NCBI GenBank assembly: GCA_003250835.1
Contig: QKJL01000016.1
Coordinates: 1-34,116 of the forward strand
DNA: 34,116 nucleotides
Source of the DNA: Alphaproteobacteria bacterium
GTDB lineage: Bacteria; Pseudomonadota; Alphaproteobacteria; Rs-D84; SZUA-605
Direction of reading: 5' to 3'
Position numbers and translations under genes: made by a program. Each line of letters starts with the position of its first letter. Position 1 is the first letter of the stretch. A model generated the notes under the pieces. That model worked only from the letters and a program-made list of their open reading frames with translations, made no database searches and was not told the DNA's origin. Positions 19,513-24,994 of this stretch are shown here, piece after piece.

Positions 19513-20067
19513 ATGAATAAATTAAAACTTATCAAAGACTTAGTTGGTTTAGTTGAGAACTTACCAATTGAGCAGGTTGAAAGAATAAATTTAATCGTAA
19601 AAGGGGCAATATCAAGGCTCTCTGAAGTATCTAAAAAAGAAAAAGCTCTGCAAGAATTGATAGAGCTAGGCAACGTCGACGAGACAATTGAAACCATTCA
19701 ATTTGTAACGGAATTAAATCTTTCTGGAAAAGAATTAAAAAAAATCCCAGAAGGTTTGAAATATCTTATACATTTGAGAAAATTGGATCTCAGTAATAAT
19801 CAGATTCAAAAAATAGAAAATCTCGAATGCTTGGTATTATTGCAAAGATTGGATTTGCGAAATAATCAAATTAAAAAAGTCGAAGGCTTGGAAAAATGTG
19901 TTCACCTTCAACGATTGTTTCTAAGTAATAATCTGATTGAAAAAGTAAAAGGAGGATTAGACCCTTTACTGCAATTAAGAGTTTTGTACCTGAAAGACAA
20001 CTTCCTCAGTTGGTTTTCAAGGGTAATGCTAAAAATATCATTCCAATATAAAGACCTTCGGGTCTGA
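19513..20067 (+). CDS. Leucine-rich repeat protein (SDS22-like 22-residue repeats)
   Basis: Repeats LRKLDLSNNQIQKIENLECL / LQRLDLRNNQIKKVEGLEKC / LQRLFLSNNLIEKVKGGL. Confidence 0.85.
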   Translation: MNKLKLIKDLVGLVENLPIEQVERINLIVKGAISRLSEVSKKEKALQELIELGNVDETIETIQFVTELNLSGKELKKIPEGLKYLIHLRKLDLSNNQIQKIENLECLVLLQRLDLRNNQIKKVEGLEKCVHLQRLFLSNNLIEKVKGGLDPLLQLRVLYLKDNFLSWFSRVMLKISFQYKDLRV

Positions 20068-22903: not shown

Positions 22904-24676
22904 TTAACTCTTATGAGTTGGTCGAACTTTGATATGTAATTCACGCAATTGTTCTTCAGACAATTCCGCTGGCGCATTCATCATCAAGTCTTGTCCACGT
23001 CCATTTAATGGGAACGCTTCCACTTCACGAAGATTTGGTTCACCTGTTAATAACATAACTGTACGTTCCAATCCACAACCCATTCCACCGTGTGGAGGAG
23101 CGCCGTATTGGAATGCTTCATATAAAGCACCGAATTTTTGTTTAACAACGTCTTCACCGTAACCAACTTTTTCAAAAGCTTTAAGCATAACCTTAGGATT
23201 ACTGTTACGGATACTTCCACCACCTAACTCAAATCCATTACAGATAAAGTCATATTGTTCAGAAAAGATTTTAAGAGGATCTTGTTCTTCAAAAGCCGCA
23301 AGTCCACCACGAGGTGCAGAAAATGGATTATGTCCAAAATCTAACTTACCTTCGTCATTCACTTCATAGAATGGGAAGTCAATCACCCAACAGAATTTAA
23401 ATTCATTTGGATCAATAAGATCAAGTTCTTGACCAAGTTTGATACGAACTTTTCCAGCAAACTTTTGAGCATCATGTAGTTTATCACAAACAAAGAAAAC
23501 AGAATCCCCATCATTCGCACCAGAGATTTCTTTGATCGCAGCAATACGGTCAGCATCTAAATTCTTCGCAATAGGTCCTTTTGCTTCGCCATCAGTTCCA
23601 AAGATGATATAGCCAAGTCCACCAGCACCTTCAGAGCGTGCCCAATCATTAAGCTTATCATAGAATGAACGAGGTCGATCCGCAGTTCCAGGTGTTGCAA
23701 TGGCTTTTACATGAAATCCTTTTGCAACTAATCCAGCGAATAAACCAAAACCTGAATCTTTAAATGATTCTGATACATCTTTAATTAAAAGAGGATTACG
23801 AAGATCAGGACGATCAATCCCATATGTTTCCATTGCTTCTGAATATGGAATACGAGGAATATTTGAATCGATTTTACGATCTCCTTTAAATTTATCATAA
23901 ACGCTGTATAAAACTTTTTCCATCGTGTTCATTACATCATCGCGTTCTACAAAAGACATTTCCACATCCAATTGATAATGAACAAGCAAACGATCTGCAC
24001 GTAAATCTTCATCACGGAAACATGGTGCAATTTGGAAATATTTATCAAATCCACCAATCATCAACAACTGTTTAAATTGTTGAGGAGATTGTGGCAATGC
24101 ATAAAAACCACCATGAGCATGACGAGAAGGTACCACAAAGTCGCGTGCGCCTTCTGGTGATGATGATGTTAACATAGGTGTAGAAATTTCATTAAATTCT
24201 TGTCCCCACATTTGTTGGCGAATAAAGCGTGTAATTTGATCACGCATTTTAATATTGCTTTGTAATTTTTCACGACGTAAATCGATGTAACGATGTTTAA
24301 TACGTAAATCTTCTGGGAATTTTTCATCACTTGCAACCAAGATTGGTAACACATCTGATTCAGATAAGACTTCAGCTTTTGAAATTTTAATTTCAATTTT
24401 ACCAGTTGGTAAGTTTTCATTAATCGCTTCCGCATCACGTAAAACAACTTCACCATCTAAACACAAAACTGTTTCTGGACGAACATGTTCAATCACTTTA
24501 AAATTAGGATCGGTGTTTTCAATAACACATTGAGTAATCCCATAATGATCACGTAAATCGATAAATACCAAATTACCATGGTCACGTTTACGGTGTACCC
24601 ATCCTGAAAGTTTAACCTGTGACCCATTATCTGTGTCACGCAAAGCACCACAAGTGTGCGAACGATATTGATGCAT
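22904..24676 (-). CDS. aspS: Aspartyl-tRNA synthetase
   Basis: 590 aa; GWVHRKRDHGNLVFIDLRD, RHRYIDLRR-like KHRYIDLRREK, GCGLERTVML, alphaproteobacterial-type PGTADRPRSFYDKLNDWARSEGAGGLGYI. Confidence 0.97.
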   Translation of the reverse strand: MHQYRSHTCGALRDTDNGSQVKLSGWVHRKRDHGNLVFIDLRDHYGITQCVIENTDPNFKVIEHVRPETVLCLDGEVVLRDAEAINENLPTGKIEIKISKAEVLSESDVLPILVASDEKFPEDLRIKHRYIDLRREKLQSNIKMRDQITRFIRQQMWGQEFNEISTPMLTSSSPEGARDFVVPSRHAHGGFYALPQSPQQFKQLLMIGGFDKYFQIAPCFRDEDLRADRLLVHYQLDVEMSFVERDDVMNTMEKVLYSVYDKFKGDRKIDSNIPRIPYSEAMETYGIDRPDLRNPLLIKDVSESFKDSGFGLFAGLVAKGFHVKAIATPGTADRPRSFYDKLNDWARSEGAGGLGYIIFGTDGEAKGPIAKNLDADRIAAIKEISGANDGDSVFFVCDKLHDAQKFAGKVRIKLGQELDLIDPNEFKFCWVIDFPFYEVNDEGKLDFGHNPFSAPRGGLAAFEEQDPLKIFSEQYDFICNGFELGGGSIRNSNPKVMLKAFEKVGYGEDVVKQKFGALYEAFQYGAPPHGGMGCGLERTVMLLTGEPNLREVEAFPLNGRGQDLMMNAPAELSEEQLRELHIKVRPTHKS

Positions 24677-24858
24677 TTTTCAATACTCCTATTTTCATTT
24701 AACAAAAATTGAGCTTAGGGGCGATCATTTAAGCGAACGCGGTGCCACCCTAATTGAAACTTGATTACAGCGATAACGGGCTTACCCGATGAGTTCTACT
24801 AAGTCATAACGACGGTTCTTCTCATTGCTCCCCGGTGTCAGCCGGATCAAAGCGGTAC
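24677..24858 (-). ncRNA. T-box riboswitch leader of aspS (ultrashort Stem I, probably translational)
   Basis: T-box UUAGGGUGGCACCGCG (24753-24738) with antiterminator partner CGCCCCUAA (24723-24715); Stem I GCUUU-GAU-CCGG-CUGACA-CCGG-GGAGC (24853-24827); Stem II AUGAG...AGUAGAACUCAU (24825-24789); Stem IIA/B-like CGGGUAAGCCCGUUAU (from 24788). Confidence 0.88.
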
Positions 24859-24863
24859 AGGAC

Positions 24864-24893
24864 ATTATAATATAAGAAAGTAAAAATATGCAA
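24864..24893 (-). promoter_or_regulatory. Predicted promoter of the aspS T-box transcript
   Basis: TTGCAT-N18-TATAAT. Confidence 0.55.
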
Positions 24894-24994
24894 CCTTTAT
24901 TTTTAAGCAATAAAAAAACGGCCCCTTAAATAAATTTAAGGAACCGTAAGTGTGTTGTGTAAATAATTAAAAATAAAAAAATTAAACTAAAAAT

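Follow-up and report, generated by a model that had tools for sequence, protein, structure and literature searches.

T-boxes are regarded as mainly a Gram-positive trait, and the aspS leader on the minus strand of the alphaproteobacterial DNA analysed here (the window, a stretch of 34 kb) raises the question of whether such an element is in use in this class, which tRNA it would monitor and at what level it would act. The original prediction of a T-box upstream of aspS was built on two sequences of the leader and the antiterminator fold formed by them, and all of these were found as described: AAUUAGGGUGGCACCGCG lies at 24755–24738 and CGCCCCUAA, 14 nt away, at 24723–24715 (both minus strand), ahead of an aspS start at 24676, and the fold UUAGGG-[UGGCACC]-GCG ... 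CGC-CCCUAA (6 + 3 bp) is present. The T-box as a whole takes up 24853–24715 of the same strand, and the gene that follows (22904–24676, minus strand) encodes a bacterial-type aspartyl-tRNA synthetase (AspRS) of 590 aa (NF001750, 775.6 bits; TIGR00459, 624.6 bits).

With the Rfam model RF00230 the leader was matched at 44.1 bits (E 2.4e-8 in 801 nt scanned; aligned span 24859–24714), below the curated gathering cut-off of 93 bits, which is a database criterion and no structural feature of the T-box family. It is for this reason that a routine Rfam scan of the window lists no T-box. The Rfam search suggested along with the prediction gave a significant E-value but a score under the curated threshold, as it did in every one of the 60 genomes of the host's order, out of 201, in which RF00230 finds matches at E<=1e-4; with 0/201 reaching 93 bits, the T-boxes of the order are missed by standard annotation. 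To avoid circularity, a covariance model (R2) was trained without the studied leader on six leaders from other genomes, namely L004 (f6), L005 (f3), L034 (f94) and L035–L037 (f95). Its sole match in the window was the aspS leader from end to end, with 90.3 bits and E 3.7e-23, E-values from purpose-built covariance models being approximate. The same model gave zero matches at 45 T-box-free aspS loci from other Alphaproteobacteria, Lentisphaerota, Bacillota and others, and among the control aspS loci it matched only L042–L045, four loci which bear the motif. The minimum-energy fold of the whole leader was not more stable than those of shuffled sequences (z 1.3).

All features of the leader are on the minus strand. 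A −10 box, TATAAT (24864–24869), with a TTG-type −35 region and an 18-nt spacer was read from the sequence, although it is omitted by a consensus promoter scan which needs 4/6 positions in the −35 region; this perfect −10 box would place the 5′ end of the RNA near the start of Stem I. The terminator scan placed an intrinsic terminator of the upstream gene at 24918–24947, so that aspS forms its own transcription unit. Stem I (24827–24853) is ultrashort, with a length of 27 nt arranged as GC / UUUGAU (K-turn side) / CCGG / CUGACA loop / CCGG / GGA / GC, according to the sequence and its relatives. The 6-nt/3-nt internal loop is of the K-turn type (UUUGAU / GGA) and was also found, with compensated helices, in L004, L005, L009, L011 and L034–L037; it is kept in relatives in which the helix is exchanged for CUG:CAG, GUG:CAC or CCA:UGG and the base for GCC:GGC or AAC:GUU. 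A long Stem I with the distal tRNA-elbow module is absent, the RF00230 alignment squeezing 74 model positions into 4 nt. Stem II (24789–24825; AUGAG-AAGAA ... UUAGUAGAA-CUCAU) contains an S-turn with the strands AAGAA and UUAGUAGAA, and all five of its pairs were changed on both sides among relatives while remaining 100% paired. It is followed by Stem IIA/B (24773–24788; CGGG-UAAG-CCCG and UUA), in which CGGG:CCCG is invariant in relatives and the UUA is able to pair with the loop UAA as a pseudoknot. The Stem III helix between the aptamer and the antisequestrator is absent, and its sole remainder is AAG-UUUC-AA (24754–24762), the purines which normally flank it when compared with the RRRxG-Stem III-AA motif (PMC7583486).

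The antisequestrator itself consists of helix A1, with its 5′ strand UUAGGG at 24748–24753 and its 3′ strand CCCUAA at 24715–24720 (4/6 pairs changed on both sides), and helix A2, with GCG at 24738–24740 and CGC at 24721–24723 (covariation alignment). Between the two 5′ strands lies the T-box bulge UGGCACC (24741–24747), identified from the sequence, RF00230 and tRNA comparison, of which UGGC is predicted to pair with a tRNA ending in GCCA-3′. The Shine-Dalgarno sequence AGGAG is located at 24686–24690, and folding indicates that CCUA of the A1 3′ strand can alternatively pair with UAGG of this site. The anatomy as first proposed was thus correct in its 3′ part, while the specifier, the K-turn-like 6/3 loop, the S-turn of Stem II and the IIA/B pseudoknot had been overlooked.

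The specifier triplet within the Stem I loop is GAC (Asp; 24837–24839), followed by A, and matches the downstream gene, with GAC-A in register with relatives in the alignment. GAC was also found in three f95 relatives, and AAC occupies the same place in L005 (f3), L034 (f94), L004 (f6) and in every f6 leader of an archaeal-type Asp-tRNA(Asn) ligase. In a set of minimal leaders described below, nearly all of them upstream of bacterial-type aspS, 59 carry GAC and 16 AAC, and the two triplets are exchanged between genomes whose AspRS are 93–98% identical in their N-terminal part. The host genome (a 671-kb assembly, 84% complete) yielded no AsnRS above the family cut-off but does encode GatB, and a non-discriminating AspRS, which would also charge tRNA-Asn, is therefore probable from gene content. 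As AspRS would then also make Asp-tRNA-Asn for GatCAB, the T-box may sense tRNA-Asn besides, or in place of, tRNA-Asp, which would be in keeping with this gene content, with the AAC triplets and their interchange with GAC, and with a host tRNA-Asn that has G73 and an acceptor end, GCCA, fitting the UGGC bulge. It is nevertheless unlikely for the studied leader, the CUGACA loop of which holds GAC only and no AAC triplet. tRNA-Asp was not found in the 84%-complete assembly. The exchange of GAC and AAC on a probably dual-charging AspRS makes it testable which tRNA is monitored by cells that form Asn-tRNA indirectly. It should also be noted that the Stem I loops of L007, L013, L199, L201 and others contain tandem triplets (GAC-AAC, AAC-AAC, AAC-GAC and GAC-GAC), which could permit reading by two tRNAs, and that f6 possesses another Asp-tRNA(Asn) ligase, of archaeal type, preceded by an AAC T-box of its own and by a strong sequestrator of the Shine-Dalgarno sequence (L009, L011, L021, L117–L142).

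The element is most probably a translational T-box of class II-like design, having an ultrashort Stem I, in which release of the Shine-Dalgarno sequence would be controlled by tRNA. The GCCA end of an uncharged tRNA would pair with UGGC of the bulge and lock the antisequestrator (UUAGGG:CCCUAA and GCG:CGC), leaving the Shine-Dalgarno sequence free and allowing AspRS to be made. With charged tRNA the antisequestrator would fail, CCUA of the A1 3′ strand could pair with UAGG, and translation would fall. No terminator-like site was found between the T-box and aspS in the terminator scan, and control is therefore most likely translational. The competing possibility of transcription attenuation (class I) would agree with the operation of classical T-boxes and with a second T-box of the same genome, missed when the aspS element was first noticed, which lies upstream of an archaeal-type tyrS and combines a long Stem I with a U-tracted terminator (G000 contig C19, 3851–4083, minus strand; L001 / L003 2352–2584; 90.4 bits). 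Besides the missing terminator, attenuation at aspS is made improbable by the ultrashort Stem I, typical of translational T-boxes (PMC7583486), and by the clear Shine-Dalgarno sequestrators of archaeal-type aspS relatives. The UGGU bulge of the tyrS element fits A73 of tRNA-Tyr, and its contig carries rpoA and ribosomal protein genes (names read from translations). In L006 and L008 (f5), tyrS was likewise seen to be preceded by T-boxes that carry a terminator and whose Stem I is shorter.

Returning to translational control, folding of the studied leader showed two nearly balanced states: forcing the antisequestrator cost 0.9 kcal/mol and made the Shine-Dalgarno sequence little more accessible (0.28, up from 0.23). 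In the unconstrained fold CCUA of the A1 3′ strand pairs with UAGG, a pairing (p 0.2–0.4) that competes with GCUC:GAGU (p 0.4–0.6). When the antisequestrator was forced in the archaeal-type aspS leaders L009, L011 and L021, accessibility rose from 0.20–0.28 to 0.71–0.79, and in L027 from 0.48 to 0.76. Two other candidate elements of the platform were rejected. Pairing of the bulge with GGUGCU in the aspS reading frame (24649–24644; p about 0.4) lacks general conservation in either f95 or f94, and the antiterminator hairpin followed by U5, considered as a terminator, has a 6-nt gap and is missing from the terminator scan listing.

A score under the Rfam cut-off, weak switch energetics and the missing Stem III could also be taken as signs that the T-box-like sequence is decayed or arose by chance and has no function. 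This is very improbable, since all helices other than Stem III are intact and covary across families, the tRNA-contacting motifs are invariant and the leader directly adjoins the matching gene. Among 11 leaders, 12/21 pairs were changed on both sides, compared to 6.7 in shuffles, and 99.6% of cells were paired against 86.5 ± 1.2% when shuffled and 31–54% with the register slid.

The relationship between the leader and its host was investigated further with an AspRS tree built under the C20 model without the worst long Bacillota/Melainabacteria branches, replacing a poorly rooted FastTree that had contained them. In this tree the AspRS whose genes carry a T-box, from the order and from f95, formed one group (SH-aLRT 94), nested within a set that includes Rhodospirillales and Caulobacterales (SH-aLRT 91), with the AspRS of f94 falling elsewhere. 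The AspRS under T-box control is, on its sequence, alphaproteobacterial and no joint import with the leader from Bacillota, which bears out in part the earlier suggestion that the riboswitch was gained separately from the gene. The alphaproteobacterial host assumed in the prediction was likewise confirmed by this placement and by SecB, MltA and LptD on the contig. A chimeric contig with Bacillota DNA, an idea prompted by T-boxes being mostly Gram-positive, has a negligible probability and is ruled out by these neighbouring genes, the AspRS tree and the recurrence of the element in 148 genomes of the order. The window also contains a reading frame for a small leucine-rich-repeat-like protein (19513–20067, plus strand), in a reduced genome.

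Conservation of the leader in relatives had been proposed as a check. A covariance model, R1, matched 148/201 genomes of the order, mostly upstream of aspS, and 93 of its 126 good genomes, confirming the other alternative offered with the prediction, namely that T-boxes reach further into Proteobacteria than usually stated. In a sample of the class it matched 9 of 385 genomes, five of them from the studied order, one from f94 and three from f95; outside the order, matches were thus seen in these two alphaproteobacterial families, with the rest of the class nearly empty. A phylum-wide sample yielded two matched genomes, the host itself and one of the same order. The aspS T-box is therefore no lone transfer but order-wide: roughly three in four genomes of the order use T-boxes, mainly on aspS. 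For comparison, a survey in 2008 reported T-boxes in 2 of 125 Proteobacterial genomes (PMC2494555), and the class II model of TBDB has been applied to Actinobacteria only (PMC7778990). Members of the order Rs-D84, genus Enterousia, are amino-acid-dependent gut bacteria with reduced genomes (PMC12306168), and no literature linking the Rs-D84/Enterousia lineage to T-boxes was found. If the order is Rs-D84, such an amino-acid-dependent life in the gut makes the sensing of uncharged tRNA sensible. Other T-boxes were met during these searches. In f120, another alphaproteobacterial family, L033 (G417) is a full-length T-box of 110 bits, above the Rfam cut-off, with a terminator and located upstream of a DAHP-synthase-like gene. 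Paired T-box matches lie back to back on opposite strands in G176 (C64, 1928–2335) and G179 (C26, 23793–24212), those of G179 between two AspRS-family genes.

A further set of 77 distinct leaders, mostly from genus g11 and nearly all upstream of aspS, was found to contain minimal T-boxes (L007, L010, L013–L020, L022, L025, L026, L028–L032, L042–L045, L175–L232). Stem II is absent from these, since the gap between Stem I and the antisequestrator is only about 20–30 nt. Basal Stem I covaries and is paired in 88% of cells, compared to 58% for shuffled sequences (the highest of 2000 reaching 64.5%), and GGUGCC, complementary to the bulge, is present downstream in 73 of the 77, against 1.8 in shuffles, a control which ignores relatedness. 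In L004, L024, L216 and L232 the T-box strand is paired, in the fold of lowest energy, directly with the Shine-Dalgarno region, and in several g11 leaders (e.g., L026 and L043) the tRNA-free fold still favours the antisequestrator. For g11 a four-segment cascade is hypothesized, in which pairing of the bulge with GGUGCC would free a second arm onto the Shine-Dalgarno sequence. More broadly, there is about an even chance that in these relatives the T-box has been cut to Stem I and the antisequestrator (no elbow module, Stem II or Stem III) and that the T-box strand acts as the anti-Shine-Dalgarno, UGGCACC pairing with a GGUGCC-type Shine-Dalgarno sequence in the four leaders named or, in g11, with an upstream GGUGCC that releases the second arm. 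In that case uncharged tRNA would, through its 3′ end, be in direct competition with the ribosome-binding site, and tandem NAC-NAC loops might dock both tRNA-Asp and tRNA-Asn, which, if true, suits a non-discriminating AspRS.

Among known systems, the ileS class II T-boxes of Actinobacteria (Mycobacterium tuberculosis, Nocardia farcinica) are translational and have an ultrashort Stem I (PMC7583486, PMC1262725, PMC10651847). The studied leader has in common with them the ultrashort Stem I without an elbow-binding module, the K-turn, the S-turn Stem II, the IIA/B pseudoknot, an antisequestrator with a T-box bulge and no terminator. It differs in its occurrence in Alphaproteobacteria, its gene (aspS), the GAC/AAC specifier, the UGGC bulge, a sequestrator only weakly seen in folding and the absence of Stem III, and because of this last point it is placed as a class II-like variant outside the standard class II. 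The leuA T-boxes of Geobacter and Pelobacter, the sole Proteobacterial ones of the 2008 survey, are different in being described as typical T-boxes, preceding leuA, in two genomes of 125 that were then classed with the deltaproteobacteria (PMC2494555). With the class I T-boxes of Bacillota represented by RF00230 the leader shares the specifier, Stem II, IIA/B, the bulge and an aminoacyl-tRNA synthetase gene downstream, but it has no distal Stem I, Stem III or terminator, and it scores 44.1 bits against 93. Lastly, a two-codon T-box of Clostridium acetobutylicum was reportedly tied to indirect (GatCAB) aminoacylation by Saad et al. in 2013. The studied leader would share this tie, but it has a single triplet, tandem NAC-NAC being found only in its minimal relatives.
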